The notes under the pieces were generated by a model. It worked only from the letters and a program-made list of their open reading frames with translations. It searched no databases and was not told the origin of the DNA. The position numbers were made by a program, and so were the translations under genes. Positions 7,218 to 55,287 of a stretch of 64,000 bases of DNA are shown in pieces. This stretch comes from Rhizophagus irregularis (lineage: Eukaryota; Glomeromycota; Glomeromycetes; Glomerales; Glomeraceae). Location of the stretch: positions 4,183,001 to 4,247,000 of the forward strand of contig NC_089446.1 in assembly GCF_026210795.1 (NCBI RefSeq). The letters are read 5' to 3'. The first letter of the stretch is position 1. Each line of letters begins with the position of its first letter.

Positions 7218-7882
7218 TAGGGATGGTAAAGTCCTAGGTCCTGGACCTAAAGACCTGGTCCTAGGACCTGGTCTGCAGATCTTTAGGTCCAAATTTTGGA
7301 CCAGAAGCGGACCAGGTCCTAAAAAGTCCTAGCCAATAAGGTTATAAGAGATCTATATGTTTAAATTATATATGTATAATTTGCTGTAAATTTGATTTTA
7401 AGTAATTATAAATTATAAAAAAGTGCACTGCAATATTGCAATACAATTTTTATATTATTAAAATCATATAAAAAATGAGTTGCGATATTGCGATTCACAT
7501 TTTTATATTAAAATCAATATAAAAAAGTGAATCGCGATACCAAAACTCACTTTTTTTATATAAAATCAATATAAAAAAGTGAATCGCGATACCGCAACTC
7601 ACTTTTTTTATATAAAATCAATATAAAAAAGTGAATCCCGATACCGCAACTCACTTTTTTTATATAAAATCAATATAAAAAAGTGAATCCCGATATCGCA
7701 ACTCACTTTTTTTATATTTAATTATTACTAAAATTCATAAAATCTATAAATAACTTAGTCAGGACCAGGTCCTGGGACCAGGTCCAGGACTGGTCCTAAC
7801 AGGACCTGGTCCGCAGGTCCGTTCAATAGGACTTATAGGTCCTAGGACCAGGACCGGACCAGGACCGACCTAACCATCCCTA
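7218..7882. mobile_element. hAT-like MITE nested in the 6480-8008 element
   Basis: Ends TAGGGATGGTAA and TTAACCATCCCTA-type inverse repeat (TAACCATCCCTA at the right edge) are flanked by the perfect 8-bp duplication CCAACGGT (7210-7217 and 7883-7890). The subterminal zones are dense in GGTCC/CCTGG words on both sides. The middle is the 52-bp tandem array. No coding capacity. Its presence inside the outer MITE fixes the order of insertion. Confidence 0.92.
7515..7722. repeat. 52-bp tandem repeat, 4 copies, each unit palindromic
   Basis: Units start with CAATAT at 7515, 7567, 7619 and 7671. Each unit carries AAAGTGAATCSCGAT and its near inverse complement, so single units can fold. A more diverged unit precedes them from about 7430. 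The array forms the core of the nested MITE. Confidence 0.9.
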
Positions 7883-12540: not shown

Positions 12541-12914
12541 ATCAAATTAGACTTTCAATTAATTAAACAGATCAAATCAGACTTAAACTTTTTCATTAAT
12601 CAGACTTAAACTTTCGCATCAAATTAGACTTTCAATTAATGAAACTGTTAAATCAAATTAAATAGTATGGTGATACGTATGTTTTATTTTTAAATTCCTA
12701 TACTTATTCAATTTTCGTTCAATTTTTTGTCTATTTCGTCCAATTTTCGTATGGTTTTTTTAATTATACCATCAATATCACTTTAAAAATGGAATATAAA
12801 AAATCACAATATTACTAAAAATTCGACATCACTAAAAATTTGATATTAATAATTACAATTTTATTCAACGTAAAAACATATTACAACTTTATCATATCTG
12901 ACTTTTATCAAAAA

Positions 12915-15900
12915 ATGAATGACGAATATAATAATCTGAGTTCTTCAACCTCTGAACGAACTTATGCCGAATTTACAACCAGAAAACCAAGATCGAAGGT
13001 TCCATGCTATTGCAGCAATTGTAATGGGAAAATGATTGATCCGCGCACAAAGGAGAGACACGAGCAAATGAATTCTTTAGAACCATTAAATTCCGATAAG
13101 GCTCCAATGTCTCAAGAGTTAGTAGAACTGATTGATTTGACAATATCGTTAGAAGAACCACAAGATACGACAATACCGTTAGTAGAACCACAAGATACGA
13201 CAATATCTATTGATACATATTCTGATAATGATACGTATGAGGAACAACAATATGTATTTCTTCCACGTAAAAAAAGGTCAAAAACAGGCATACTTCGTCA
13301 TATTACTGAAGTTAAGCAAGTCGCTGAATCAACTGAATATGACACGGATGATATCTACACTAGTGAATCTTCGGCACAAGAAGATTCTCCTAATAATGAT
13401 GATAACGAATTTTCAAGTAATTTTGAGAATTATTCTCATCCTATGTTCGACATACCAGATATTTCAGACACACCGAATATTTCAGAATTACCAACAGATG
13501 AACTAATTAAGGGAATTTTGATATGGATTATGAAGTTCAGGTCGAGTCGTAACATACCAAATACCGCAATTGAAGAATTAATACAATTTATTAAAATAAT
13601 ATTGAAAGTGTGTAAAAATATCAATCCCGAATCATTTCCAAATTCATTATATATGTTAAGAAAAGCGTTAGGACTTATCGATCGATTTACGCAATTTGCA
13701 GCTTGCCAAAAATGCCACAAATTATACAAAAAAGAGGATATAATATCAAATGATGATAATACTATTATGAAATGCAGCCATGTCAAATTTCCAAATTCGG
13801 CCACAAAGAGATTAAAGCAATGTCAAACTCCTTTAGGAAAGAAAATTTCTTTAAATAATAGTATATCAATTGTTCCTGAATTAATTTATCCGGTCTCGAG
13901 TATACAACAGCAGCTTTCTAGTATGTTCAAGCGACCAGGATTTGAAGAATTATTGCGGCATTGGACTCATCGTTCAGTAATTGATAATATTTTATCAGAC
14001 ATATACGACGGGCAAATTTGGCAAAATCTTAAGGAATCAAACGAACAAGGGTCAAATAACTTTTTCCGACCGGACAAGGCTGATACTCATCTAGGATTAA
14101 TGATAAATTTGGATTGGTTCCAGCCGTACGAAGGAACGATTTACAGTACAGGTGTAATATACGCAATAATATGTAATCTACCTCGGGATGTTCGATTTAA
14201 GCCTGAAAATATGCTTATACTTGGCATATTACCGGGACCCAATGAGGTTAAATTACATAGAGTAAATCATTACCTTTCACCAATAATCACAGAATTAGAA
14301 TCACTTTGGGAAGGCGTGATTCTTAATCGCACTTATGAATGTCCAAATGGCAAAGATATTCGAGCTGCATTAATAATTGCTTTGTGCGATATTCCTGGAG
14401 CTCGAAAATTATGCGGGCACATCTCTGCCCTTGCATCATGCCATCGATGCAAAAAAAGGGCCAATAATCGCAATTTTGGTGGTATGGCGGATATGAGCGA
14501 CTGGTTTATCATGAAAGATCCAGTCGAGCATCATCAAAAGGCTTTAGAATGGCGACGATGCAAATCTAACGCAGAAAGAGAGAGATTCGTCAAGGAGAAT
14601 GGCGTAAGGTGGTCTGAAATATTAAGACTGCCGTATTTTGATTTGATTCGTTTTGTTGTTGTAGATCCGATGTATTGCCTTTTTCTAGGAATCGCTAAAT
14701 GGATAACAAAACGAATATGGATTGACGAAGGTGTATTAACAGAAAAAGATCTTCAATCAATTCAAAAGAAAATAGATGAATTTAAAGTACCATCAGATTT
14801 GGGACGAATTCCTGGTAAAATCCATTGTGGTGAAGGGTTTTCTAACTTTACCGCTGACCAATGGCGCAACTTTTTCCTAATATATGCCACTGTTGCTTTA
14901 TGGAATCATCTTCCGGGTAAAGATCGCAAAATTCTTACGTATTTCGTAAGAGTTTGTACGATTTTGGTTAGACGAATTGTGGAGATTAACGATATGAAAG
15001 AAGTCCATGAACTTTTGATAAAGATAATTAAATTGATCGAAGAATGCTATGGCGAAGAAAAAATAACGCCAAACCTCCACCTATCATTACATCTATGCGA
15101 GTGCTCTTACGATTACGGACCTCTGTATTCGTTCTGGTGCTTTAGCTTTGAACGAATGAATGGCTTATTAGGTAATTCAAATTTAATTGTGTCGATTTTT
15201 CGAATTATATTATTTCATTTAGCAAAGATTAATAATAAATTATTTATTAGGATCTTTGCCTAATAGCCACCGCCAAATCGAACCTGAACTAATGCGTCGA
15301 TTGATGACCGAAGCGCAAATAAATGATATTATTAATAGTTCAAGTTCAGAAGTAATAGGACTCGAATTACTCGATAAATGACCTTCTGTTGGTTCTCTTT
15401 CTGAATTTCCAACAGATGAAATGTATCGATTTTTGATGAATTCCAGAAATATATCAGAGTCACCAATTACTGGTTGCGAGGAATTTCCGGATAAATTTTT
15501 AGCACCGCAATCCAAAGATATTCATCTTGAGGAACAAATCTACGATTTACTTATCGAATATTATGAGGATACATATGTAGATTCTATATTCAGAAAACTG
15601 TTCACGGAAAATTTACCCAATTCAACGATCATTATCAACAGAGCGAATCGATATGGAAGATGTCAAATCTGTGCAGAAACTTTTGGATCTGCTGCTGCAA
15701 CATGACATATTAAGAGCTCATTCGTCTTAGCTAAATTTATTAATCGTGATGGGAATAGCTTTGATACTTACCCAGGTCAAATCCAATTTTTTTTCGAACA
15801 TAGCGTTCATTTATCTTCCCGTAATTTGACACACAAATTGGCTTACATCAAATGGTACAAACTGGCAAATTTGACATCTCGATTCCATTTCAGTATTGAC

Positions 15901-21617: not shown

Positions 21618-24600
21618 TTAAAATCGACACTCCATCCTGCAAAAGCGGTTATTAAGTAGCACCGTTAGACGACCCATAAAACCCGAAATGTGATTAAACC
21701 AAGATAATCCATATTGCATCGAGTTTTTTAACCAATCGGTTCCAGAGTCACGTGAATCAATTTGGGTCGGAGGTGGCAAAGATGAGTAAGGTAGATAAGA
21801 AGATTTAGACAAACCTTTAGGCCTTGGAGACTGTTTAAGTGTTGAAGTAATGTTCATCGCATGTTCCCATAATCCTTTATCATACGAACGCGGATTCCAA
21901 ATTCGTTTACGGAATTTGTTGATAAAATTGTTATGTATGGCGGCAACCACATTCATAGCAGCGAGGCGAGGAATACATAAGGTTTCAAAAACTTCCAGAA
22001 AGGCGGTGGGCAAACAGCCATGAACCAGACTATAGGATGACCAGTTACGAGATGAGAAAGACCAACAAGGAAGGGAAGTGATTCTATCCACTAGAGAAGA
22101 ATAGTCACAATTGGCATTATCACCCGCTTCTTTGATTTTTTGGGTAAGGTGGTGAAGATAAGATGTTAAGAGTTGATGTAATCTATCACGACGCTTATTG
22201 CATAAAAATAAATGCATAAAATCTTCTAAATGGTCTTCACAGGAACGACAAGTTAGAATTTCCACGTATAAATCAGGTCGTGTCCTTTTCAGTGATTCCA
22301 AAGTGGGTAGGTCTTCCAGAAAGAGTTGGAATTTTAATGTATGATGTCTAGAAACATTTTCCTTAGTGAAAGAGTTATCAAATTTGGGTTGAAACATTAA
22401 CGTATGCCAAGTAAGAACCCAGTCAATCATATATCCAGAAGGATCCGTTAAGAGAGAAATAAAACGGAAACGCGAAAGAGCTAAAAGGTCTTTCATATAC
22501 AACATTTGATGATATTGTTTAAACAAATGTCTGGGGTTGGATTCGCAGATTATGTCATCATAGAACATAATATAATCATGAACTGCTGCGAGATCGAGAC
22601 GGGAGATGAGAACAGCATCATCAGATGTATGGGCAGTATTGGCAAGAGAATCAGCAAAGTCATTCCAGTAAAAATTAGAGTGAGCTTTAACTTTGAAAGG
22701 CAAAACCGAGAGTTGTTTATCCACAATTAGTTGTTGGATGACAGCCCAAAGTTCAAAATTGGTAGTCTTATAATAAAGACGAGAATCTGAATAAGCAGAT
22801 AAGAAACAATGTTTCAAATCCTCAATGGAAGACTGTGAATCTGTATAAATATGAACAACAGAGTTGGCAGGGGAGGCTGATAAAGCAGCATAAATAGCAG
22901 CAGCTTCAGCACGCGAAGAAGAAGGCCAATCACGAATAATACCCGCTTATAAGTGGCAATAGAATTAAGAAAGCCAGAGTCTTTGACAATTTGAACCCAG
23001 CCCCATCCCATAGAAACATCACTAGTTCCTAAATTAATAAGAGAGCCATCAGTGTAAAAGGTGTAATGTGAATCTGGAGAAAGCACAACCGATGATGATG
23101 CAGCAACATCGCCAGCTGTAAATAAGCGTGGAGTAGGTAAAGCTATATCGACAGTGTTGAAAGAGGAATTGAGAATATCAACAGCTAACACTGAGTCAGT
23201 TGAAGGATTGTAATTTGAAGTAACAAAATCCTTGATTTCCGCCCATGACACTGTAGCAGTCAAGCTGGAAGTATGACTCGTAATGGATGATTGCTTCATA
23301 GGTAAAATCCATGAGTGACTAAGAGAGACCGAGTAAGAGCAGGACACAGAGCTAGTGGCAACAAATTTCTTTGAATACGAAGATTTATTTATATTCAAGT
23401 TGCAGCCAGGACAAAGTTGTAGAGTGATCAAATCACTCGGACGAAATAAGCAGTCTGAGATCCAATGCACAATAGTACAGGTGGAATGCTTGGGTTGAAG
23501 CTGAATCTGTTTACCGAATATGGGGGAGCTATCATCATTCATCGTGACAATCCAATTCTTCTTATAACCAGAAGGAGGAGTACAAGGAGAAAGTTCTTTC
23601 GCGATATGACTCACAGGGCATTGATTAGTCATAAATTGATCTTTTAATAAACCAAATTTATCTGGAACTGTGACATTAACAGAAAGATTTTTGTACCAAT
23701 TGGGAAGACAGGCATTACCACGCTTTTGAGAAGAATTAGCATATATGACAGGCCAAGAAAGTAAATGTGTTCCCTGGGGTGTCAACAGTTGCGAAAGGTA
23801 GAAAAGGCAACATTTTCGGAGTCTTGTTAAATTGGCCTTAAATACATCCAAAGAAAGACATTCGATAAATGGGAGTACAGACCATAGGACAAGCTTAAAT
23901 CAAAAGGCACAGGCGATAAATTAGCACGTGACAGACGGAAAGGAGTTGAGAGCAGTGAAGCTAAAGTATTAGCAATATAATCTTGTTTAAAGATTATAAG
24001 AGAAGACCAATAAGACCAATCCAAAACCATCAAAGGAGAAATAGGAATTAAACAATAAAATTGAATAAACCTCAATCTATAATTAAAAAGTAACTTCATA
24101 AAAACAGAAGAAGAATTTGCTAACAAAAATAAATTAGTAAAATGACTTTGTTGTTGAAATGAAAATAAATTGATCAAACTCAAAGCTTGTGTTAAATATA
24201 ACACCACATTAGGAACAGAACGTGATAGTTTGGCCTTATGTTTAACTAAAGCACGAATTGGAGAAGTAATAGTAGAACATTCAACCTCAGATAAATGCGT
24301 AACTTGCATACGATAATCCAATTTCGGGATCAAAACAGTATTATAAAGATAAACCACTTGTTGAACAGTCAATTTCGCCGGGCGGAGAATTGCAGAAAAA
24401 GAATTACATTCTCGTTTGAGCTGTTGTCGGATAAAATTCCTAGAGCCGTTAATATTAAACCAAACGCCCAAAAAATGGAAAGACGAGGACATAAGGATAG
24501 GAGTAACTGTAATATTGGTTGTAGTGTTGAGTGATGAAGTCAATAAATTAAAGGCTATAGGAGATAAATCTCGAGAAGTAGCAACTGCATTGGTGGCTAA

Positions 24601-27281
24601 AACATATTTGTTATGGTTGGCTGAGGTGTTGTTCAAACGATAAAATTCTTCAGTGATGAACAACATATGTTCCATTTCCTTTTTAGAAGAAGAAATCAGA
24701 GTAGAATCATCCATAAACACCAAATTATTAATCTTTAAAACATCCAAAGAACGAGAGTTTGGTGAAACAAGATCGGAAGCCATAGGAGAAACCAAACAAT
24801 AAGGGTCTTTCTTTTCATTTTTCAGGACTGTGAGCAAAGGGTCTAAATAAATAACCCATAAAAGCGGAGAGATAACTTCACCTTGGTCTATACCAATTCT
24901 AACTCTATATGGCGGAGTAGGGCCATGTGCAGTAATGACACGATTAGAATGTGACATAAATAAAGAAAGTAAGAATTGAATAGCATTTTCTGGTAGACGT
25001 AAGCGTTGGAGAGCAAAACGCAACATGGATAGATCAACAGAATCAAACGCCTTTGAAATGTCTTGAGAGAGAATCCATAAGGGTTGTTTAGTGACTACTG
25101 AATCGTGGATAATAGATTCCAGTGTAATAATAGGATCGTGGCAAGAACCTCCAGGTAAACCTGCGAAGTTTCCTCCTTGAAGAACATGGTGGGAAGCGAG
25201 CAAAGGAGCAAGGCGATTGTAAAAGAGCTTAACCAAAGCCTTGCGAATCACTTCTAATAAAGTAATAGGATGAGTATTTTTGAGTTGGCATTTCCATTCA
25301 TGCAGTTTCGGAATAGGAAAGACAGTAGCTTGTCTCCATAAATCAGGGATATTTGCATCTGATAGACAGGCACAAATTAGGTTAAAAAGAAGAGCAGAAG
25401 CAGAGAATCCTAAATGTTTCAACATCTTATATGAGATCATAGAAGGTCCTGGGGCTTTATAATTAGGCATGGAGGAAATCGTTAAAGACCATTCATCAAG
25501 GGTAGGAGGATCCATAAGTGAATCAAAAATAGCTGGAGAGACTTCAGCAAGCGGCGCATAAGCGTTAGACCATCGATCTGGCAAATCCTGTATGGAAGAA
25601 GGAGGAGTGGAGGTAATTGGAACAAAATTTTGAAAATGTTCAATGACTTCTTGATCAATAGCATCTGGAGAAGTTAATAAAGTAGGGCGTGTTGGATGAT
25701 CAATAAAGACACGATCAAGAATGATTCGTCGTCTGGTTCGTGACAAGGCAGATTCAATAAAAGTAGAGATATCATTGGTGAAGTTATCATTCCGAGCATC
25801 AATTTTTGCCTGAATAGAAGAAGCTTGAAATTCTTTTTCTTTAAGCAAAAGTAGGCTTCGCAAAAGCAAAGTCATATTCTCTAACATTTGAAGTAAATTA
25901 GCAAAATCATCAATTCGTTCATCACGAAGAGAGGAAGGAAGAACAGTAGAAGTAACAAAAATTTGTTTATAACTAAAAAGGAGTTGATTAAGACGTAAAT
26001 AATATGAAGACCATTTGGACTCAAAACGAACAGAATATAAAGCAGGGTTTTTGTGAAGGGAGCGAATAATCTTCGCCACTTTAGACAAAAATCGATAAGA
26101 TTGACATAAAGTTTCTAGATCTTTAGGCTTTTTCGGAGCATAGGTATTGCCCACAGTAACTGAGGGCAGCTGGGATTTTGCAGCTTTAATAATTCTAGAA
26201 TGAAGATATTCACATTTCTGATTAAGAGGCCAAGTATCGAAGACAAGTGGATCAATTGGGCATAACTTATCCAAGTCATCAGCAAAGGCAGTCCACTGTT
26301 CCATAGAAATAGAATCATATTTAAAAATGCGTCAAGTATTATGACCAAGTTGACGAGCACGAGCAGATTTAATAGCATCTGACAGTAAAGAGATGTCAAA
26401 ATAGGTGATAATAGGGTTGTGATCAGAAATGTGTAAATCGTAGGCATCAAAGATAGTTGATGTTAACATATAACGGCAAAGAAGCGGGCAGGACCAAACG
26501 AAGTCAATACGGGTAATAGTGTCCAAGTGGTAATAAGTACCCAAGGTACTAGATAAATTAAGGGGAGTACAATCCTCATAATTATGAGAAAGCAAATAAT
26601 GAAATAATTTATGAACTTTTTTAGCGGCAACCTGAGGTTGATGCAAAAATATGGGGTAAAATTTCTCCAAATTCATGTTGAAATCACCACAAATAGCATG
26701 GTGGAAATTTTGTGAAGAAGTTTGAGAAATAAGAGAAATTAATTGATCAATGACTTCGTATCGAAGAACAAGATCATTTGTAGGAGGAATATAAACTACA
26801 AATATACGCAATTTAACATTGCCTTTAAAAAATAAGTCTACAGAGAGAATTCGGGAAGAATGGGATTGATAAAACTGGACATGAGTAGCTAAAGAGTTGT
26901 GTATGAACAAAGAGACACCACCAGAAGAACGGCCGTGTTTAGTAGAATCCAAATCAGAATGGAAAGAAGTATAATCACAAACACGCTTAGATAAAAATTT
27001 CATTTGTTTAGGTGATAAATGAGTATCAACAATACCACCAAAAGAAATATGGTTATGGGAAAAAAAGGAAAAAATTTGGTCCATTTTAAACGAACTATGA
27101 CCAGGAGTTTTAAGACTATTAACATTGAAGGAAGAAATATTAAAGGAATTGGGGATGGGTGAAGTAGAAGAAGAAGAAGAAAAGAATGTATCAGATAAAG
27201 GATCATTAAAAATATCACTAAAATCAACAGGGTTGGGGGGTTTCGCACAAAGGTATCATAATCTATGTTATTGTTCATCAT
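21618..27281 (-). pseudogene. LINE ORF2: AP endonuclease, reverse transcriptase, RNase H, zinc knuckle
   Basis: The replication enzyme of the LINE. The start is near 27281 (MMNNNIDYDTF). Endonuclease: FNVNSLK, SGGVSLFI, ICGDFNMN, RIDFVW and SDHNPI, covering about 27160-26390. Reverse transcriptase: SQDISKAFDSVD, GIDQGEVISPLLW and the active-site box VFMDDST (Met where Ala or Val is common). RNase H: FYTDGS, RAEAAAIYAAL, IYTDSQSS and VKAHSNFYWNDFAD (Asp, Glu, Asp, Asp). C-terminal zinc motif: CRSCEDHLEDFMHLFLC. Lesions: indel near 27240 in a C-run, in-frame TGA at 26332-26334 between the endonuclease and RT parts, one-base deletion near 23885 and another near 22948. All domains are otherwise present in the usual order for RNase H-bearing LINE clades (Tad/I-like group); clade placement is inference. 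Confidence 0.92.
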
Positions 27282-30540: not shown

Positions 30541-32830
30541 ATGGAAAATATGGAAGAAGAGTTGAGCGAAGATATTCAAAACTCAGAATTTACATATGGT
30601 ATGTATAGCTTAGGGTTAGAGGTTAGGATTAGGGTTAGGTTAGGTTGGATTAGAGTAGTTTTTGGGTTTGAGTTAGAGTTAGGGTTAGGTTTTGGGTTAT
30701 TAGGGTTAGGTTAAGTTAGGAATGCAGATTTAGAGTCAGATTTTAGTATTACTATTTCTAATTTTGTATTTTTTTTTTGTAGATAATTGTAATAATAAGG
30801 CAATTTTGTCTAATGAAGATGAACATGTACTACTATATACAGGGAAGAGATTTGAATTATGGGATGATTGTGAAGATTTTGTAAGTGCATGGGCTAAATA
30901 ACAAGATTTTCGAATTATTAAAGATCGTGTAGTTGGTGATGGAGGAGTTATTCACCACTGTACATATATTTGTTCTCATGGACGTACCTATGATTCCACT
31001 TCAGCTAAAGATACTATTACAAAAAAAATTGGTTGTCTATTTATTATCAATGCTTCATACCCGAAATTAAAGAATCCTGAAGGTTTTGTAATTACCAACA
31101 AAATTGTTGACTAACATAATCATCTATTAAATGTATCAATAATTGAATTTGAGGATTCTAGAAAATTTACCAATTTAATGTTTGAGGATATTAAATTTAT
31201 GACTATGTCTTGCAAATTTGGAGCAACGGCACAATGAAAATTTCTTGAAGGTAAATATCCAACTCATCCAGTATATTCACAAGAACTTTATAAAGCTATT
31301 TAAAAATTTCGGCCTACAAAGAATTCATTATCAAGTGATGCTACTGATATTTCAAATTGGCTTGATAGTTAAAATAAAGCTGATTCTAAATGGGTTGTAT
31401 ATTGAGGTTGGGATGAAGACAATACTCTCACTCACTTACTCTGGATGACGCCTTCTCAAGTTGAGAATTGAGTACAATATTCTAATTGCGTTATAAATGA
31501 TGTTATGCACAAGACTAATTGATATAGTATGGCGTTATTTTTGATTGTTGGATTTAATAATGACTGCTAAAATATATTGTTTGCTCAAGAGTTATTAATC
31601 GATGAAAGTCTTGACTTACACACTTAGATGTTTAGCAATATTATTAAAGCTACTGGTATACAACCTGTTGTTATTATCACAGATTCTGATCCAGCTGTAG
31701 ATGCAGCAATCTGTCAAGTACTTCCATTTACTTATTCGATTCACTGTACCTTTCACATTTCTCAAAACTTGAATAAAAATCTGAAAAAATTATTAGATAG
31801 TGAATACCAGAGTTTTATTCATGATTTTTATAGCTGTCGTAATTGTATTGTTGAAAACATTTTTCAACAACGTTTTAACAAGCTCATAGAAAACTACCCT
31901 AAAGCAAAGAATTATCTGGAACATCTTTATAAAACAAAAGAATATTGGGCTCATTGTTACATTAAGCATCATTTTACAGGAGAAATGATAGCCAGTTTTA
32001 GGGTTGAATCAGTTAATGCTTGTTTAAAGCGTTTGTTGAATAATTCTAATATTTCATTATACGTTCTTATGTTTGAAATTCATCAATAGGATAAAGAAAA
32101 GGAATATGAATATTGGCATTTATCAATTCCTAATATAAGAAGGCAAACTAATACGAATTTTTTATTTACAAACATTATTCAGCTAAATGTAATTATTGTG
32201 CTTAAACATGGTTTAGAGAAAAACCAAAAATTTTGAAATTATATTTAGCATATATTGTAATGAAACACCATTTAATGTTAAATTAGAACATATGAAAATA
32301 TTGGCAACCCCAAGTGCATCTACTAATAGAAGATAGATTTCTGATATCAATTCATTAACTAAAGTTAGTTTTTGTAGAAGTAATAATATTGATCAAACAT
32401 TAATTCAATTTTTTGTATGTTGTAAAATTCCATTCTTTACTATTGGTCACCTTTATTTTATGAATTTTATTCAAAATCTCTGTTTTTGTTATAATTCTTC
32501 TAAAAAACAACTCTTTTAATAGCTACTTTAAATAAAGAAATTTCTGTAGTTTTAGATAAAGTTAATGAAGAACTGAACTTAAATATAAAGAAAATTTAAC
32601 TTTAGATTTAATATTATATATTATACTTCATGAAGCTTTTAAAGAACATGTTTGGAAATCGCGATGTAAAATGATGAATGAACTAGAAGAATCATTGCAT
32701 ATTACACCTTAGGACAAGTGTAAGACCTCAAGGACACATAAGGAGGACGTAGAAACTCAACGCGATCACTATCGATATACTCTAACTGCATTTCGTAAAC
32801 GAAAGGCATCAAAATATAATGAAGGCTTAC
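30541..32830 (+). pseudogene. Mutator-like (MULE) transposase with FAR1-type zinc domain, decayed
   Basis: Exon 1 starts MENMEEELSED at 30541 and ends near 30598. An intron (about 30600-30780, GTATGT..TTGTAG) leads into a FAR1/WRKY-GCM-like DNA-binding domain (FELWDDCEDFVSAW, CTYICSHGR, IVD*HNHLLN). The MULE core follows at about 31628-32090: VVIITDSDPAVDAAI (catalytic Asp region), the CTFHISQNL Cys/His motif, and GEMIASFRVESVNACLKRLL (candidate Glu). Stops at 30898, 31112 and others, plus indels between 31230 and 31620, make it a pseudogene. C-terminal sequence can be followed to about 32830. Element ends were not found. Confidence 0.82.
30606..30722. repeat. Telomere-like TTAGGG-derived repeats inside the MULE intron
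   Basis: A degenerate array of GGGTTAG, AGGTTAG and GGATTAG words on plus, within the first intron of the MULE pseudogene. The G-strand reads in the direction of transcription. It looks like an interstitial telomeric sequence or a G-rich intronic satellite. Confidence 0.75.
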
Positions 32831-37734: not shown

Positions 37735-38779
37735 CCTGAACTTTCTTTTCCACTCTATAGCATTTTAATAAAATGAGATTTTCATTTAATAAGTTTTCAG
37801 ACTGCATAGGAATTAACTCAAATGAAATATCATCGAGTATTACAATATGATCTTCCTGTAAATCTGGTAAATTATTCTTTTTTGATTGTTGTTTATCCTG
37901 TTTTGAATGGTTAATCTCATCAGCAAGTTTTAAAAGTGTTGCTTTACATAATTTTAATGTTAATTAACATTAAGAAGTTATTTAATATGATATAACCTAT
38001 TGTTTAATACTGTATACTGTAATGATTAACACTGAATGGTGTTATATACGTATAATTTTACAAGTTTTTTTATGTTGTTTAATGTCAAGTATAGTTCAAT
38101 ATGATATGCAATGTAGTTTAATGTCATCAATCAATGTAAACAAACACAAAATGTTGTTTTATTAAAATTTAGTATAAAAAAACACTAGTTATTATTTCTA
38201 TTTATTAATACTATACATATTTTTCAACACATAATGTAGTTTAATATATTGTTAAATGTTAATAAGCGATATATATAAATACAAAGTTTGTTATATTGCA
38301 ATTTAATATAAAAATACATCCATTTTTATTAGTGTTTTTTAACATTATATATATTTTTTAATATCAGGTGTAATTTAATATGTATATTGTGTTGTTTAAT
38401 ATTAATAATTAATGTATATAAATACACATCAAACCTTACTACTGAAGACTCCCTTTTTTTATCACTATATATAAAATAAAGCTGAGGAGAGCAACGTGCT
38501 CTCCCCCTATAGGTACATTTCCTTTTTATGACTTACCTATTTATAGAGGAGGGGCTTTTCGTAAAGTATTAAAGTTAATAGATAGATATATATATATATA
38601 AGCATATATATATATCTATTAAAAAAAATATAAAAAAAAAATTTTGGGAAAAAGCCTCCTATTTATATAAATCCACATATTATGTGTATCACGTGATACT
38701 GAATTAATAATTACCGCTGCGCTTGCTGCGGTGCTGTGATATTGCGAAAAAAAAAATTAAGCTTTTTTTAGTAGCAAAT
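37735..38779. other. AT-rich region with repeated TTTAATRTT words
   Basis: From 37960 to 38440 the words TGTTTAATGT/TTTAATATG recur about a dozen times at irregular spacing. Related AACATTAAAC/TTAACACTA words lie at 41490-41690 on the other side of the plus intron array, so the two may be decayed ends of one element; no target duplication was found. Also present are a GGAGAGCAACGTGCTCTCC hairpin at about 38486 and an AT microsatellite palindrome at about 38582-38620. No gene. Confidence 0.45.
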
Positions 38780-39694
38780 GCTTAATTTTTTCCTCATGAC
38801 TTTTCTTTTCTCTTTTTCGTTCTCCCCTTCCCTTTCTCTTTTATTATCCCCTTCCCTTTTCTCCCACTTCCCAAATGGTAAGTTTTGAAGCGTTTGCTTC
38901 AAAACTTTTTTTAAGCTTTTTTTTATAATTTCTTTTTTCTCCCTTTTGTTTCCCCTTCCCTTTTCGCTTCTCCTTCTCTTTCTCTTTCGTTCTCTCCTTT
39001 TCTTTTCGCTTTTTCTCCTTCCTTCCATTTCCAAAATGGTAAGTTTTGAAGCATTTGCTTCGAAACTTTTTTTAAACTTTTTTTAAAAATTTCTTTTTTC
39101 GCCCTTCATTTTTCCTCCTCTCCTTTCCTTTCGTTTTCTCTTCTCTTTTCTTTTTCTCTTTCGTTACTCTCTTCCCTTTCATTTTCTCGTTTCCCAAATG
39201 GTAAGTTTTGAAAGCTTCAAAACTTTTGTAAATTATATTTTTTTAATCCTTTTAGTTTAGGAAACTGACGTTTCCTATAATTTTTTTTTGTAAGACTTAG
39301 CGTATTCAATTAAAAAACGAAATGGTAAACTTTTTTTAAAAAATTTTTTAATTTCTTTTAGAAAATGGCACTAATGTATCCTATAATTTTTTTTGTAGGT
39401 GTTCGACTTCAGATCTTGGATATAGTAGTGGAATGGTAGGTTTTGAAAAGTTTCACTTCAAACCTTTTAAAATTGATTTCGAAACTTAAATAACTTTTTA
39501 AAATAGAATTTTTATTAGGAACTGTTTTAACTGATCCTTTATTTTTTGTAGGTTCAAGAATATCCAGTATTGGATACGGGTTTTAAAACGGTAAGTTTTG
39601 TACGTTTCGTTACGAAACTACTGTTGTTTGTTTGTTTTTTTTAAAAATTAGGAAATGTTTACTAATATTTCCTTTTTCTTTTATTTATCTAGGT

Positions 39695-40152
39695 TAGTGT
39701 TCCAATCTGAGGATATCTGTCACCATTTTATCCGATCTGATTAGTATTATTCAGATCATTCAGATCATCCTTAAGGATTATCTGAATTATCCATTAATAC
39801 CATTAAAATTTGTATATTATATAATTCCAGCCAGCATTAACTGATCAGCACCAGAATTTCCTTTTTTAGATACTTGTATAACAAGAATTCCAATTTTCAC
39901 AGAAATTAAAATTTTCTTTTTTGGAAATTTGTGTAATGTTATATGATTTGGCGGGATCTGAATCATTATAAATTAAATTTGTCAGATATCTGTCAGATGA
40001 ATCTGTTATTATCTGTAATCTGAGAAATCTGATCTGTTATTATCCGTCATCTGTGTGATCTGATCCGTTAACTTATCCGTTATCTGTATAACTGCCAATA
40101 TCTGGATATTTGTCAAAAAATCCAGATAGCGGCTAATCGAATTGGAACACTA
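39695..40152. mobile_element. hAT-like MITE inserted at a splice acceptor
   Basis: Ends TAGTGTTCCAATCTGAG and (inverse) TAGTGTTCCAATTCGATTAG. Flanks ATCTAGGT (39687-39694) and ATCTAGAT (40153-40160) match at 7 of 8 positions. The duplication contains the CTAG acceptor of the plus intron array, so the acceptor now exists on both sides of the MITE. The interior is rich in GATCTGA/TCAGATC words. Confidence 0.87.
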
Positions 40153-40522
40153 ATCTAGATATATAATAGAATTCGTTGGTTTAGTATCAGATAGTAAGTT
40201 TCGAAGAGATTCACTTTGAAACTTTTAAAATCTATTTTTTTTTTAAATTTTTATTAGGAAACGTTTACTAACGTTTCCTTTATCTTTTTTGTAGGATCAG
40301 ATCGGAGTGTTATCTCAGATCGGGAATGCGCTGAAAACGTTTAAAATGTAAGTTTCACAACATCCTGTTGTGAAGTAATTGTTTTTTTTTATTTATTTAA
40401 TTAGAAATGCTAGCTAACGTTTCTATTTTACTTTCTTTTGTAGGTTTCAAATATGGAATGCGTTAGAATGCATTGGGAATGTTTAAACTGCAAATTTTGT
40501 TGCGAAAGAGACAGAAATAGCT

Positions 40523-40718
40523 ACCTGCTAGAACTGGTAAAGATAATAATAATAGAATGACTGTCACTAATACAGCCAATGCAAACAGAGGCATACGGTG
40601 AAATGAAATACCCAGAGTTCGCATATTTAAGATGGTTGTTATGAAGTTTATGGCACCAAGCATAGAAGAGATACCAGCAAGGCGAAACGAATTATAATCA
40701 GTTCCGCCTTCAGGATGG
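40523..40718 (-). pseudogene. cox1: Nuclear copy of a mitochondrial cox1 fragment (NUMT)
   Basis: Read on minus, 40681-40523 gives [20 protein letters not shown] followed by a stretch with [20 protein letters not shown] and LPVLAG. This is the conserved transmembrane VII-VIII region of cytochrome c oxidase subunit I. Similarity stops abruptly after LAG on one side and weakens beyond the first LAG on the other (possibly to 40718). It is about 53 codons, without stops. Lying inside an intron-like array, it cannot be a functional gene. The exon of the plus array that contains it is read antisense to cox1. Confidence 0.85.
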
Positions 40719-40930
40719 TAAGTTTCAAATTTTAAAATAAAACTTATTTTATTTTTTTTATAAGAAACTTTTTCAATGTTTCTTTTTTTTTATTTTTATT
40801 ATAAGTCCTGAAGTTTCGAATCAGTGTATTAGAACTGAAACCGTAAGTTTCTTTATGAGACTATTTTATTTATTTTTTTTTATTATTATTTTTAATGTTT
40901 TTTTTTTCTTTTTTTTTGTAGGTTTCAAAT

Positions 40931-42415: not shown

Positions 42416-42816
42416 AACACAGTATCATATACCAGCCATACAAAAGTTATTTAAACATGGATCTGCATTGATGAAATGCTATAGGTGTGAGAAACGTAGT
42501 GTTTATAGTAAAGAGTATAGAAAAAATCACTATGGGAAAGATCATACCTATAAGTCATAGAATCACATAGAAAACATGCATATGAATTGTTGCAATGCAA
42601 CTCAAAAAATTTTAGGGAAGATTATTTCAAAAAGTATGGTGTACGCTGGTCTGAATTGCTTCATCTTTTATATATGAATCCTATACGTTTTGCTGCAGTA
42701 GATCCAATGCATTGCCTTTTTCTTGGTGTAGCAAAGTGGATAATTAAATCTATTTTTGTGAGCTAGCACTAGTCGAAAAAGGACAATTCAGCCTAAATTT
42801 GACCAGGTTGAATATA

Positions 42817-43699
42817 CACCCACCTGCCAAAAGTATCCGGGCACTTCTAAAAAATGACCATTAAATCACATTAATTCGACATCCAGTGATCAGAATTTAA
42901 TGATTTATGATTCATTGGATTCATCTAATTGAGACGCATCTAACCGCAGTATTTTTAAGTCTGTAAGTTCAATAGATCAGAAGTTATCGTTAAATGTCTA
43001 AAAACAGTAAAATGCAAATAACTTTTGATCCATCAATCCTAGAGACATGAAAATAATAGATACAATGTACCTTAACAAGACAAATCAAATGAGTCATAAT
43101 TCATCTTACTAGGTTTAATAGGAAAGAAAACGTTATAAAATTTGTATTTGCTAAATTTTTAAAGATGAAAAATGAATTATTTGCATTTTACTGTTAAGAA
43201 TAACATCTGATCCATCAAATTTAGAGACAGAAAAATACTGCAATTTGATGCATCTTGATAATATGAATTCATTGAATCATAAATAATTAAATTCTGATCA
43301 CTGGTTATTGAAATAATGTGATTTAACTTTATGAAGTAATTCATTTTTCATCTTTAAAAATTTAGCAAATACAAATTTCATAACGTTTTCTTTTCTATTA
43401 AACCTAGTAAGATGAATTATGACTCATTTGATTTGTCTTGTTAAGGTACATTGTATCTATTATTTTCATGTCTCTAGGATTGATGGATCAAAAGTTATTT
43501 GCATTTTACTGTTTTTAGACATTTAACGATAACTTCTGATCTATTGAACTTACAGACTTGAAAATACTGCGGTTAGATGCGTCTCAATTAGATGAATCCA
43601 ATGAATCATAAATCATTAAATTCTGATACCTGGATGTCGAATTAATGTGATTTAATGGTCATTTTTTAGAAGTGCCCAGATACTTTTGGCAGGTGGGTG
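42817..43699. mobile_element. Palindromic Tc1-like MITE, TA duplication
   Basis: Ends CACCCACCTGCCAAAAGTAT and (inverse) the same motif, with TA on both sides (42815-42816 and 43700-43701). The arms are nearly perfect inverse complements for about 360 bp, around an unpaired middle of about 160 bp (43190-43345). The AAAAGTATCCGGGCAC terminus resembles Tc1-family ends. Copy 1 of CACTA shows the empty site (GAATATAGGTCG). The arms include a CATCCAGTGATCAGAATTTA core. Confidence 0.93.
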
Positions 43700-44099
43700 T
43701 AGGTCGAATAATGATCTAATCTATGTCAAATTGAGGTCAAATTTTCAGGCGCATTTAGGGTGCCAATCATCTCAAATTTGGAAAGAAAATTCAACCATCA
43801 TTACACTACAATTTAATCTAACTTTGACTAGGTTAAATTTAGGTCGAATTATTGCGTCAAAATGAGGCGCAGTTCGAATGATTATTTGACACAAAATTTT
43901 AAGGTCTCATTAATTTAGTTTCAATTTCAAATTTATTAATTTATTAAAACACTTAAATATACAGTACATGTATATTAGCATCTATCTAATATATAAATAA
44001 AATAATTATACACAATTTTACAATTACATGATCGCATCTTGAAAAGAACGAATGTTTCACTATAACTAAAAAAAAAATAAAGTTCAAGTCCGATCTGAA
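43700..44099. other. CACTA copy 2 subterminal region
   Basis: GGTCGAAT, TTGAGGTC and GCGCATTTAGGGTGCC words match the left subterminal region of CACTA copy 1 (9410-9500). The rest is AT-rich and without genes. Confidence 0.7.
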
Positions 44100-47000
44100 A
44101 TAAAAATTCAGAAAAATAAAACTTTAAAAAAAAAGTTTCAAAACGAACCGTTTTGAAACTTACTAATCGATCCTATTATCCAGGATAAGGAAGCCGAAAC
44201 TACAAAAAAAGATAATAAAAAAATTAATTAATAATAAAAAAAAAAATTTTAAAAAAAATTTTTTAAGTGAAAAACTTTACCAATTCGATCCAGGAAGTGT
44301 GAAACTGTTGATTTCTACAAATTATAAGATAAAAAAAATCAATAAAAAAAAATCAAAATTAATAATAAAAAAAAAAACTTACCAATTCCAAGATGCTGAT
44401 CTACACGTCCTACTAAAGAAATCTACCGAAGCTGAAGAAAATTCCAAGAAAACGTCTTACAAAAGTAAGAGATAGAGGAATGGCAGGAAAAAACGAAAGA
44501 GGAGAGGAAAGGTGAGAGGGGAAGAGAGAAAGAAAGCCCCAGAATTCCTATAAAATAAAGAAATAGAAACGTTAATACAGTATAACGTTTCTTTTTTAAA
44601 AAAAAAAACTACTAAGATTCGTAATACTTACAAATCTTAGTTCTTTTCGTTCTTCAGAAGCCCACCAAAACCTATAAAAAAAGAATAAGAACGGTTAGTA
44701 ACCGTTCATAATAATAATAATAATAAAAAATAATAAAAAAAACCAAGATTCGTACTTACTTACGAATCTTGGTTCCTTCGATCTTCAGAAGCCAACTGAA
44801 CCTATAAAAATAAAAGAAAAAAAATGGTTAGAAACTGTTTATAATATTAAAAAAAAAATCCAAGGTTCGTAATGAACCTTAGTTCTCCTTTTTCTGATCC
44901 TCAGAAGCCCACCTAAACCTATAAAAAAAAAATAGAAAAAAAAGAAATAGAACCAAGGTTCGTATTTACTTACGAATCTTGATTCCTCCGTTCTTCAGAA
45001 GCCCACCTGAGACACAGAACCTATAAAAAAATGAAAAGAACAGTTAGTAACTATTTATATAATAAAAAAACTAAAAAAACAAGTTACGAAACTTGGTTTT
45101 TTTCGTTCCTCAAAAGTTTACCTGAAACGGCCAAACCTATAAAAAAAATGAAAAGAACAATTATTAGCAACCGTTTATTAATATTAAAAAAAAAATTAAA
45201 AAAAATAAACCAAGATTCGTACTTACGAATCTTGGTTCCTCTTTTCCTGAAGGTCAGAAGCCCACCTGATCCTAAAAAAAAAAAGAACAGTTATTAGTAA
45301 CTGTTTGTAATATTTTTTTTAAAAACAATAAAAAAAAATCCAAGATTCTTACGAATTTTTGGAATTTTCCCATTCTTCGGAACACGGAAGCCCACCTGAA
45401 CCTATAAAGAATAAAAGAACAGTTATTAGTAACCGTTTGTAATATTTTTTTAAAAAAAAATAAAAAAAAAATCCAAAATTCTTACGAATCTTGGAATTTT
45501 CCCGTTCTTCAGAATACAGAAGTTCATCTGATCCTAAAAAAAAGAAAAAGAACAGTTATTAGTAACCGTTTATTAATATTTAAAAAAAATCAAAAAAAAA
45601 TAAAACCAAGATTCGTACTTACTTACGAATCTTAGTTTTTTCCGTTCTTCAGAACAAGAAAGCCTATCCGATCCTAAAAAAAAAAGAAAAAGAACGGTTA
45701 TTAGTAACTGTTTATAATATTAAAAAAAAAAATAAAAAAAATAAGATTCGTATGTGAATCTTTGGGTTTTCATTCTTTGGAAGCCCTCCTGAATCTATAA
45801 AAAAAAATACAAGAACCGTTAGTAAACCATTCGTAATAATAAAAAAATAACAAAAAAAAATTAAAGATTCGTATTCGTACTTACAAATCTTTGGGTTTTC
45901 CGTTCTTCAGAAGCCCACCCAAACCTAAAAAAAGAAAGAACGGTTAGTAAACCGTTTATAACGATAATATTAAAAAAAAAAAAAAAATATTTGATTCGTA
46001 ATATAATACTTACGAATCTTAAAATACCCTTTCAGAAATCTATCTCCTTTCATTTTACTCTTCCCCTTTCGTTTTCCCCTTTCGTTTTACCCTTTCGTTT
46101 TCCTCTTTCTTTTCTGTTTTCCTTTTCCTTTCGTTTTATTCTATCCCTTTTGTTTAACCTTTTTCTTTCGTTTTTAGCTTCCACTTTCATTTTTAGCTTC
46201 CCCTTTCGTTTTTAGCTTCCCTTTCATTTTTAGCTTCCCTTTTGTTTTTAGCTTTCTCTTTTGTTTTTAGCTTGCCTTTCGTTTTTAGCTTCCCTTTCGT
46301 TTTTAGCTTTCCCTTTCATTTTTAGCTTTCTCTTTCGTTTTTAGCTTCCCTTTCGTTTTTAGCTTCCCTTTCGTTTTTAGCTTTCCCTTTCGTTTTTAAC
46401 TTCCCTTTTCATTTTTAGCTTCTCCTTTCATTTTTAGCTTCCCCTTTTATTTTTCGCTTCCCTTTTATTTTTCGCTTTTCCTTTTATTTTTCGCTTTTCC
46501 TTTTATTTTTCGCTTTTCCTTTTGTTTTTCGCTTTTCCTTTTGTTTTTCGCTTTTCCTTTTGTTTTTCGCTTTTCCTTTTGTTTTTCGCTTTTCCTTTTG
46601 TTTTTCACTTTTCCTTTTGTTTTTCGCTTTTCCTTTTGTTTTTCGCTTTTCCTTTTGTTTTTCGCTTTTCCTTTTGTTTTTCGCTTTTCCTTTTGTTTTT
46701 CGCTTTTCCTTTTGTTTTTCACTTTTCCTTTTATTTTTCGCTTTTCCTTTTGTTTTTCGCTTTTCCTTTTGTTTTTCGCTTTCCCTTTCATTTTTCGCTT
46801 TCCTTTTCATTTTTCGCTCCCTCTTTCATTTTTCACTTCCCCTTTCATTTTTTCGCTTCTCCTTTCATTTTTCACTTCCCCTCTCATTTTCTCTTCCCCT
46901 TTCATTTTCACTTCCTCTTGAAACCTATAAAAAAACAAGAACAGCTGGTAAACCATTCTATAATATTAAAAAAAATCCACTATTCGTAATAATACTTACG

Positions 47001-47150
47001 AATCTCAATCACGTCTTGGATCTACAAAAGCAAAAAATGAAAACGTTAGTAAAACGTTTCATTAAAAAACAACAAAATAAAATTTGAAGGTATATATATA
47101 CCTTCAAAATAGGAGTCTGGCCTTCTAAATGGGCGTCTTAGACCTACAAA
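44100..47150 (-). other. Array of intron-like modules with mini-exons (minus strand) inside CACTA copy 2
   Basis: On minus, predicted mini-exons include 47102-47143, 47000-47021, 45885-45924, 45627-45673, 45486-45533, 45353-45401, 45227-45271, 45088-45136, 44974-45020, 44764-44801 and 44632-44671. They are separated by introns with GTAAGT-type donors and TTTTATAG or TTTTTTAG acceptors. Mini-exons in the 44.6-45.7 kb part resemble each other (GGTGGGCTTCTGA near the start, CCAAGATTC at the end), so exon-plus-intron is the amplified unit of about 135-160 bp. The donor lies inside a palindrome formed by exon end CCAAGATTCGTA and intron start TACGAATCTTGG. Before the acceptor a second hairpin (AACGGTTA..TAACTGTT) carries TACTAAT. 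Two units (about 44869 and 45758) have lost the donor GT. An exon of up to 911 nt (46014-46924) covers the GA-rich minisatellite. No known protein is encoded. Confidence 0.62.
46040..46915. repeat. 19-bp minisatellite and related CT-rich repeats
   Basis: From about 46440 to 46800 the unit CGCTTTTCCTTTTGTTTTT repeats every 19 bp, nearly perfectly, about 19 times. From 46150 to 46440 a looser unit, TTTTTAGCTTCCCTTTCG, occurs. Because 19 is not a multiple of 3 and the unit lacks stops in several frames, overlapping open frames of 100-175 codons appear on both strands. On minus they give Lys/Arg/Glu-rich repeats (KGKAKNKRKSEKQKEKR). They are not evidence of a gene by themselves. Confidence 0.92.
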
Positions 47151-53877: not shown

Positions 53878-55287
53878 ATGGCTACAAAGCGTGGCGAGAA
53901 ATGAAGAATTGACGATAATGAAAGATTTTCAAAACGTAGTACTGAGGGTAGCGAAGCTGAGAAGCAAGTGAGAATATCTGATGATAGCGTTGATAGTATA
54001 TATGACATGATATGTATCATATTCTTTATAAAAGAAATTATATAATATATAGTTAAATTATATTTTATTGTTAAAGTTAATAAAAAAACAATAGAAAAAC
54101 TATTAAGAACTAATTCGCAGATAATTTCTAAGCTTGAAGTTCTTATCACCAGACAAAAAAATCTCAAAACTCATCTCTCGAGCATAGAAAAAAAGCTCAA
54201 CAATAATAACAAAAATAATAATAATACAATAGATCCAGAGTATGTAAAGGTAATAAAGATGAATATTATTTAATGTAAACCTGAAATGCTAACCTCGTTT
54301 GATTAGGAGCTTGTTAAGAAGGTGTCAAAAATTTTATTTGAAAATTTTGTTTATCCTTCGCAAGACGAGTACAAACTCGCTACCAAAAAATATTTAAAAG
54401 ACGAAAATCCGGAATTTATGAGCCAGTTCAAAAAAAATCAATGGATTATTTTTTTTGAAAAAAAAATTGCCCTGGCTGTAAGTTAAAGCAATTATGAATT
54501 TTATTAAATTTCATACTAACATTTTTTTTTAATAGTTAGTATAACAACATAGAAGCATACGAGGGACGTTCACGTCTAGAATTAAAGACGTTATATATTT
54601 TGTTTTCGAAGCGACTGGGCATAAATTACCGTCTATTAACACTCAGGCTAGTCCGTCAAAAATTCAGGAATGGAAGAGTAAGGCGGAGGTGAAAAAATGT
54701 TACAACAACCTATTTAAAAAGGTTAAAGATGGGCAACTTACGACATATATGTTGCTGATAATTGATAAGTTGCGAAAAGAAAATAAAAATCCCTCAAAAA
54801 CACAAATAGCGTATGCAATTAGCATATGTGAAACGTACTTAAATCCTAATAATCAAAACATTTAAATGAGCGAAAGTATAATGAAGTCGAAGATAATCAA
54901 CAACTTAGTAAGTTTTTAATTTACAATTTGCAAAATGTGAATTATTTGAATTACAGTTTATTTATTTATTTATTGATTTTTAGCAAAAGTTGGAAAATAG
55001 GGATAAATTTACACATTCGGACGATGATTCTCATGATGGTAATGATGTAGATGATGGTGGTGATAGAGCAGCTGACGATAGAGCAGGTGCGGCTGATGAT
55101 GGTGTGACTAACGATGGTAGGCCTAACGATGATGCGGCTAACGATGATGCGGCCAACGATGGTGGCGGCAGCCAATGATGGCGGCATAGCTGACGATGAT
55201 ATACTTTCTATTGACTCTTATAACACGGAGGAGGAAGGTCAGTATGTAAATAGTTTATTAGAGAATTATGAGTTGCATAGGAAATAA
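53878..55287 (+). pseudogene. Acidic coiled-coil accessory protein of the large transposon, lightly damaged
   Basis: Starts MATKRGEK at 53878. Codon 9 is TGA (53902-53904), after which the frame continues RIDDNERFSKRSTEG. After an intron (about 53995-54073) comes a likely coiled coil, KTIEKLLRTNSQIISKLEV and LKTHLSSIEKKLNNN. The next exon, from 54308, reads ELVKKVSKILFENFVYPSQD..FEKKIALAV; then SRIKDVIYFVFEATGHKLP and NNLFKKVKDGQLTTYMLLII to a TAA near 54865. A last exon from about 54984 gives an Asp/Ala-rich tail and, after a one-base shift near 55160, ends EEEGQYVNSLLENYELHRK at 55287. Gene order and splicing are inferred from GT..AG sites. No known family; it is presumably an accessory factor of the transposon. 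Confidence 0.6.

Follow-up and report, generated by a model that had tools for sequence, protein, structure and literature searches.

Arrays of short, structured, intron-like units are present in the genome of the arbuscular mycorrhizal fungus Rhizophagus irregularis, and two of them lie in the stretch analysed here, 64,000 nucleotides of contig NC_089446.1 (G000:C18:4183001-4247000; assembly of 146.7 Mb in 32 contigs), hereafter called the window. On balance, we favour the reading that DNA transposons with inverted termini carry these arrays, which would consist of micro-exons and short U2-type introns with two hairpins each, and that the folds aid intron definition. A bolder proposal, possible but tentative, is that they represent a new class of elements, "splicing-module arrays", a transposon cargo selected for being spliced, with many micro-exons linked by introns whose donor and branch site both lie in hairpins; the conserved splicing code would then reside in structure instead of sequence, and the elements would account for hundreds to thousands of introns in the genome. 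The plus-strand array had been noticed in a preliminary description of the same DNA; the observation is confirmed, and it is larger than was then reported.

Two arrays of structured units in the window

The units of the window were identified by direct reading, with an intron caller, with a covariance model (R1) and by folding. Ten donor-type sites are found on the plus strand between 38.88 and 40.92 kb (the first positions of the ten units in Table 1), and eight of them belong to donor-to-acceptor units of about 74-116 nt. The structured units of the preliminary description are thus present, together with the hairpins it quoted (AGGAAACGTTTACTAACGTTTCCT at 40256; AGGAAATGTTTACTAATATTTCCT at 39650; AAGTTTTGAAGC..GCTTCAAAACTT at 38880). 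The plan that they were said to share, a hairpin at the donor plus a second one at the branch motif, holds for most units; those at 38878 and 39039 have the donor hairpin only, without a branch hairpin or a clear acceptor, and the structure is weak in the units at 39325 and 40843. Six units are clear GT..AG introns in form, and those at 39201 and 40718 depart from the GTAG-type ends described, since their acceptor is a degenerate TAAG. Clean mini-exons measure 37, 39, and 53 nt, within the range of 30-53 nt given before, and two long "exons" carry insertions. One of them, of 501 nt, contains an inserted element with inverted termini (~39687-40160), and the other contains a minus-strand fragment of mitochondrial COX1 (PF00115, E 2.3e-13).

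A second array with the same plan, absent from the preliminary description, runs on the minus strand from 47.1 to 44.1 kb, so that the two arrays are convergent and about 3 kb apart. Its donors sit in hairpins that extend from the exon into the intron (CCAAGATTCGTA-AG-TACGAATCTTGG), and the branch hairpins differ in arms and registers from those of the plus array (AACAGTTA-CTAA-TAACTGTT, GAACGGTT-ACT-AACCGTTC). The unit furthest upstream (47022..47101) combines a donor hairpin across the exon boundary with the branch hairpin GAAACGTTTTACTAACGTTTTC, and seven of the nine exons between the caller introns at 44548..46013 measure 40-49 nt. The R1 model, built from 36 introns that include three of the plus array but no intron of the minus array, recovers both arrays: every window match with E < 0.1 is an array match on the expected strand, and with E up to 1 only three others appear, at 7557-7654 and at two opposite-strand positions beside array units.

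The units exceed chance and differ from ordinary introns

With the stringent intron caller, 4 introns were called on the plus strand and 8 on the minus strand of the window, 11 of these 12 inside the two arrays, versus 1 and 1 in the reversed window. As a baseline of ordinary introns we used seven chaperonin (CCT/Cpn60) genes, in which 20 introns were placed by reading frame, some of them approximately, and 19 were used. For 61 array introns, five of which belong to the plus array, the mean folding z was -2.00 (donor) and -2.57 (branch site), versus +0.14 (donor) and +0.22 (branch region) for the 19 chaperonin-gene introns; the five plus-array introns alone gave -1.39 and -2.14. In ten chaperonin loci R1 produced a single weak match (E 0.085).

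The same kind of sequence is abundant in the whole genome. A 24-base branch hairpin, searched with up to 2 mismatches, has 53 matches versus none in the reversed control. Two patterns in which no hairpin was required also exceeded their reversed controls, namely GTAAGTTTN{30,60}TACTAACN{12,28}TAG (204 versus 12) and the variant of this strict intron pattern that has CTAAC instead (874 versus 122). Among 100 listed matches of the first pattern 66 distinct introns were typed, and for 29 of these the branch hairpin reaches p <= 0.05, as computed for Watson-Crick pairing against local shuffles. Among 100 listed matches of the second, 80 distinct introns were typed; a donor hairpin is present in 49, a branch hairpin in 47, both in 33, and at least one of the two in 63.

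In their sequence signals the units follow the U2-type order on one strand, with a GTRAGT donor, a CTAAC/CTRAY branch motif, a pyrimidine tract, and AG; the median distance from the branch A to the acceptor is 25 nt, the median exon 35 nt (n=87 measured), and the median intron 92 nt (n=146). In a stwintron an internal intron splits a splice element of the outer one; in the units that were examined by eye, donor, branch, and acceptor each read as continuous. From the donor and branch sequences, we set the minor (U12) intron type aside.

Hairpin density peaks at donors and branch sites

Perfect stems of at least 8 bp were mapped in ten stretches containing arrays. Their density reaches 9.8/kb at donors (40 stems over 4064 nt) and 13.1/kb at branch sites (38 over 2910 nt), versus none in the remaining intron parts (1616 nt), 1.9/kb in exons (8 in 4173 nt), 1.2/kb in adjoining DNA (10 in 8522 nt), and 0.29/kb in the rest of the window (17 stems). 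Because the stems concentrate at donors and branch sites, this distribution argues against a general excess of palindromes. The first hairpin begins at donor position +3 or straddles the exon-intron boundary, and the second presents the branch motif within or next to its loop, with many arm sequences and several registers.

The preliminary description had also stated that the arms vary and stay paired, and covariance analysis bears this out. In an alignment of 30 introns from one unit family (A1), 99.7% of the cells of the donor helix are paired, with two-sided changes in 4 of 13 pairs, and 90.3% of those of the branch helix, with two-sided changes in 1 of 11; its 30 two-sided cells were matched by 0/500 shuffles, its 5 of 24 pairs with changes by 76/500, and its 12 further pair types by 292/500. 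An alignment of 36 diverse introns (A2), which was chosen, aligned, and annotated with the two-hairpin structure in mind, shows two-sided changes in 12 of 22 pairs and 58 cells, with 0/500 shuffles as high for either count, and all slid structures score far lower. These counts do not represent independent events, because the units are related.

In predicted ensembles of 146 array introns and the 19 ordinary introns, the GU of the donor is more open in the arrays (0.49 versus 0.32), as is the CTAA loop region (0.65 versus 0.45), and positions +3..+6 are less open (0.20 versus 0.46). The hairpins thus look like structures that, as modelled, display the branch motif and the GU and partly mask the remaining donor in many families. 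An earlier wording, that both sites are sequestered, was softened accordingly, given that only +3..+6 is predicted to be more paired, and not in the introns of the window.

Whole arrays inside elements with inverted termini

Arrays are preceded by a promoter-like leader of 95 nt that has at least 40 dispersed copies, each of the 40 scored out of 137 candidates being a near full-length match at 90-98% identity. The leader of the window array, a diverged copy, is 79% identical to that of the C2 element over 377 columns, and 77.6-80.0% identical to six other copies over 114-207 columns. Two copies, in C16 and C2, have about 2.65 kb in common, bounded by inverted termini (CCCAGTAAATAG..) and by the target duplications ATA and CAA. 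In another family, the C2 and C3 copies have 5.2-5.5 kb in common, bounded by CACAGGTCGAA../CACAGGTCAAA.., and both have 3-bp target duplications (TAA and TAG). Inverted termini and 3-bp target duplications therefore bound all four array copies checked. No acceptable inverted termini were found around the window array, nor either of the known termini.

Ends starting CAC(A/T)(A/G) and a 3-bp target site duplication are features of CACTA/EnSpm elements. The C2/C3 termini have such a start (CACAGGTCGAA / CACAGGTCAAA), and this carrier family is, judged by its ends, CACTA-like. Its terminal repeat was scored in 40 of 90 candidates, each of which matches at 97-100%, and this identity suggests recent activity of the C2/C3-type element. 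The likeness to the CACTA/EnSpm/CMC superfamily lies in ends beginning CACAG, in the 3-bp target duplications, and in the abundance of Tnp2 in the genome (at least 155 matches, with 150 of 393 candidates scored); the carriers examined differ in showing no transposase and in holding an intron array. No transposase was found in the C2 copy, where L037 is without an open reading frame (ORF) of 100 amino acids (aa) and L033 without one of 80 aa. The only ORF of at least 100 aa in L038, which covers the C2 region, is a hAT fragment outside the element, and the middle part of the C3 copy has neither an ORF of 80 aa nor a transposase. By eye, and among the matches and elements listed, no PF02992 (Tnp2) match falls inside a terminal-repeat element, taken as 5.5 kb long. 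The hAT fragment, which encodes a transposase dimerisation region, occupies L038 3583-4152 on the minus strand, beside the C2 element.

Within arrays, near-identical exon-plus-intron units occur in runs, which points to tandem copying inside the arrays and agrees with the earlier statement that units are copied; the runs are partial, with units of about 124-140 nt, and many neighbouring units differ. The arrays are seen, from the comparison of copies, to disperse as whole arrays inside elements with inverted termini, with tandem copying enlarging them. As for the "satellite hybrid" of the preliminary description, satellite-like growth in tandem does occur, but it is secondary to the dispersal of arrays by elements. 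Very regular arrays, with an intron of about 80 nt, an exon of 32 nt, and a period of about 112, are found at C11:3266907-3267876 and C12:4451583-4452439.

All six sampled genome matches with hairpins lie within arrays of 3-12 intron calls. None of seven ORFs picked from these six loci reached the Pfam cut-off, and below it two families matched one ORF, outside the L041 array.

Conservation between copies and coding potential

Five pairs of copies were compared and pooled, with exons classed in four of them and one copy used in two pairs. Substitutions amount to 83/720 (11.5%) in exons versus 154/2600 (5.9%) in the rest of the introns, and exons are the more diverged in all four pairs with classed exons. 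The donor hexamer changed in 4/204 positions and the acceptor in 1/102, with 190/3046 in the flanks, so that the splice-site letters are, in this sample, conserved between most copies compared. The general statement that exons always evolve faster than introns was dropped, since the L010 family shows another order.

The lengths of 87 exons leave a remainder of 0, 1, and 2 on division by three in 20, 40, and 27 cases. Joined-exon frames were examined in the 11 arrays that offer three or more exons in a row, a set that leaves out the plus array of the window, with its two exons. In nine arrays they do not stand out from letter shuffles (p 0.08-0.79). The longest frame, of 99 codons, is in L010 (p 0.01), and the minus array of the window has one of 63 codons (p 0.02). 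The L010 frame is kept in L048, and its upstream part is broken in L047 by two 1-base deletions, in two exons. On these results, which are mixed, we consider the array units probably non-coding.

A proposed mechanism and its alternatives

According to the mechanism that we propose, transcription would start from the leader, and the donor and branch hairpins of each unit would fold while emerging, each donor being paired with its own branch site over a short U/A-rich linker. The folds would bring the donor near this branch site, neighbours would be joined in order by intron definition, and micro-exons too short for exon definition could in this way be joined. Intron definition is proposed because the exons have only 30-50 nt and many similar signals stand in series. 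The arrays would be cargo dispersed by DNA transposons, with a transposase acting from elsewhere, and tandem duplication of units would lengthen them. Donor and branch hairpins together are an unusual intron design, hard to explain unless folding helps splicing.

Several observations weigh against this account. Neither hairpin is present in 17 of the 80 typed introns of the 874-match pattern. The branch heptamer, with 19/238 substitutions against 154/2600 in the rest of the intron, shows no extra conservation. The branch A is predicted to be no more open than in ordinary introns (0.41 versus 0.53, p 0.14), and +3..+6 in 15 window introns about as open as in ordinary ones (0.44 versus 0.46). 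G.U pairs are not consistently more frequent than A.C mismatches in the hairpin arms, the four tallies being mixed. In the L010 family exons are conserved as well as introns or better (10/359 versus 27/930; 2/364 versus 13/929), and in one of the two comparisons splice-site letters changed in 5/108 positions, versus 27/930 in introns (0/108 in the other). Joined-exon frames exceed letter shuffles in 2 of 11 arrays. Finally, no processed, intron-less copy was found, the 37 matches to joined-exon queries each covering one exon and at most a few bases more.

Small nucleolar RNA (snoRNA) host genes are spliced transcripts whose introns can matter more than their exons. By analogy, the arrays might be host genes for small structured RNAs encoded in the introns, with exons as mere spacers, an explanation that we consider improbable, if the best placed of the alternatives. 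The greater divergence of exons in the five pairs and the well-defined two-hairpin folds speak for it. Unlike snoRNA host genes, the window has no Rfam match (0 at gathering score); the arms vary widely among units, and the exon conservation of the L010 family also speaks against this explanation. A simple source of hairpin-derived small interfering RNA was likewise disfavoured, because the stems, at 8-13 bp, are short for Dicer.

Slightly less probable is that the palindromes arose at the DNA level, by template switching that perfects imperfect palindromes followed by copying, without RNA function and perhaps without splicing. The wobble counts bear on this, on the premise that selection at the RNA level should tolerate G.U over A.C in the sense strand. 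In branch hairpins A.C exceeds G.U in two of three tallies (G.U:A.C of 10:31, of 12:25, or 7:11 outside the branch letters, and of 9:7 in the genome sample); part, though not all, of this excess arises because the branch letters are fixed, and the counts for the branch hairpin favour neither side. In donor hairpins G.U is clearly above A.C in two of three tallies (28:12, 17:1 in the A1 family, and 16:12 in the genome sample), which supports, as far as such counts can indicate, an RNA-level constraint there. Wobble bias was rejected as a proof of RNA selection, because the tallies are mixed across hairpin types. Other palindromic tandem repeats in the window, by our reading of their consensus units, fit a DNA-level origin; the concentration of hairpins at donors and branch sites and the retention of splice-site letters between most compared copies do not.

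It is also unlikely that the arrays are multi-exon protein genes or their remains, whose spliced mini-exons would encode a repeat protein, perhaps transposon- or effector-like. The open frames of L010 and of the minus array, and the preservation of the former in the close copy L048, agree with such genes. Against them stand the nine arrays with unremarkable frames, the small share of exon lengths divisible by three (20/87), and the 1-base deletions in two exons of L047; moreover, avoidance of TAG acceptors may cause a depletion of stop codons.

The introner suggested in the preliminary description, a single module that transposes into host genes and becomes an intron, accounts for near-identical introns at dispersed sites and is very improbable, because the six sampled matches all lie in arrays and termini with target duplications bound whole elements (2.65 kb; 5.2-5.5 kb), not single introns; the search for single modules in host genes that it called for found none at the six sampled sites or in the seven chaperonin genes, whose placed introns are without the folds.

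Features of the arrays and of their surroundings

The features of both arrays are collected in Table 1. The purine-rich exon repeat of the second array and the pyrimidine-rich 5' segment of the first are complementary in type, and in the C2 copy such segments are 86% complementary over 42 nt; judging from this complementarity, the 5' pyrimidine-rich and internal purine-rich segments of array transcripts could pair with each other. In the window, pyrimidine-rich sequence spans 38796-39195 on the plus strand.

Table 1. Positions of array features in the window
Feature	Position	Strand	Evidence
Leader; promoter-like stretch with TATTTATATAAA, CACGTG, imperfect short palindrome, and long hairpin	38431..38795	+	
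Pyrimidine-rich 5' segment	38796..38877	+	ends AAATG right before first donor; layout matches six other copies
Degenerate unit, donor and 5' hairpin, no branch hairpin	38878..38941	+	R1 48.1 bits, E 4.5e-6
Degenerate unit, donor and 5' hairpin, no branch hairpin	39039..39102	+	R1 46.7 bits, E 7.9e-6
Structured unit, branch hairpin TAGGAAACTGACGTTTCCTA, degenerate acceptor	39201..39292	+	R1 46.2 bits, E 9.9e-6
Intron-like unit, clear GT..AG, 74 nt, weak structure	39325..39398	+	sequence; R1 20.3 bits, E 0.65
Structured unit, clear GT..AG, 116 nt	39436..39551	+	intron caller; R1 31.5 bits, E 0.0054
Structured unit, clear GT..AG, 102 nt, branch hairpin GGAAATGT..ATATTTCC	39591..39692	+	R1 61.9 bits (R1 training member)
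Inserted element splitting mini-exon	39687..40160	.	~20-base inverted termini, 19/20 bases match
Structured unit, clear GT..AG, 101 nt, branch hairpin AGGAAACGTTTACTAACGTTTCCT	40194..40294	+	R1 80.4 bits (R1 training member)
Structured unit, clear GT..AG, 96 nt	40348..40443	+	R1 57.1 bits (R1 training member)
Structured unit, acceptor TAAG degenerate	40718..40805	+	R1 30.3 bits, E 0.009; sequence
Last plus-strand unit, clear GT..AG, 79 nt	40843..40921	+	sequence; no R1 match
Second-array end, donor with 5' hairpin	44106..44163	-	R1 42.8 bits, E 4.3e-5; outside training set
Second array, ten caller introns, 67-111 nt	44548..46013	-	R1 matches, none in training set
Purine-rich stretch within second array	46020..46930	-	tandem repeat, period 19, 44 copies
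Upstream unit of second array, GTATAT..GTAG	47022..47101	-	sequence; R1 32.7 bits, E 0.003

The COX1 fragment inside the array "exon" (~40480-40720, minus strand) has an open frame and is a nuclear mitochondrial insert. Between the converging arrays there is a large inverted repeat of 372 bp, 97.8% identical (42815-43186 / 43331-43701). A lone intron-like GTAAGT..TACTAAC..TAG sequence without a clear hairpin is found outside the arrays at 54478, and it may be an ordinary gene intron. Further repeats of the window are a tandem array of 52-nt palindromic units at 7414-7717, with a weak R1 match (E 0.11), and a degenerate TTAGGG tandem repeat at 30610-30710 (17.8 copies, 69% matches), internal to the contig and telomere-like by motif only. 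The window also contains a Tnp2 transposase ORF (12840-15263, plus strand), ORFs for a LINE-like reverse transcriptase and endonuclease (23827-27084, minus strand), and a MULE/Mutator transposase fragment (31628-32089, plus strand).

Relation to known systems and significance

Introners are spliceosomal introns that spread by DNA transposition, and many families, as the main text of PMC9860276 presents them, have inverted termini or target duplications. They enter genes as single introns (PMC9860276), whereas the unit that moves here is the whole array, with no host-gene insertion found at the sites sampled. Neither Rhizophagus nor Glomer- nor hairpin occurs in the main text of that study. Fungal introner-like elements and the stwintrons of Hypoxylaceae are described in PMC8469720 as repeated introns that contain inverted repeats and are predicted to fold stably; there the inverted repeats stand at both intron ends, without target duplication (PMC8469720), in contrast with the two local hairpins on donor and branch site and the carriers with 3-bp target duplications reported here. 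In yeast, introns contain "zipper stems" and "downstream stems", which bring the donor nearer to the branch site and promote splicing (PMC12350175). These zipper stems lie between the two sites (PMC12350175), and the stems described here include the donor, from +3 on, and the branch motif.

We recognised no report describing such arrays in the open-access literature, a scope that excludes subscription journals and preprints. In the same literature no paper was found that joins introner and arbuscular mycorrhizal, and none that joins arbuscular mycorrhizal fungi, introns, and microexons; the main text of a study of R. irregularis transposons (PMC11075540) contains neither "intron" nor "splic".

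If the arrays are spliced, a single genome would offer a structured intron design in hundreds of natural variants, and what RNA folding does at donors and branch sites could be read from their covariation and tested directly. They would also be rare examples of transposons with an intron-dense, apparently non-coding cargo, which raises the question of why splicing is kept though exon sequence seems unimportant in some families. In arbuscular mycorrhizal fungi, part of the repeats that are still unclassified may be such arrays, which would also mislead gene prediction in these genomes.

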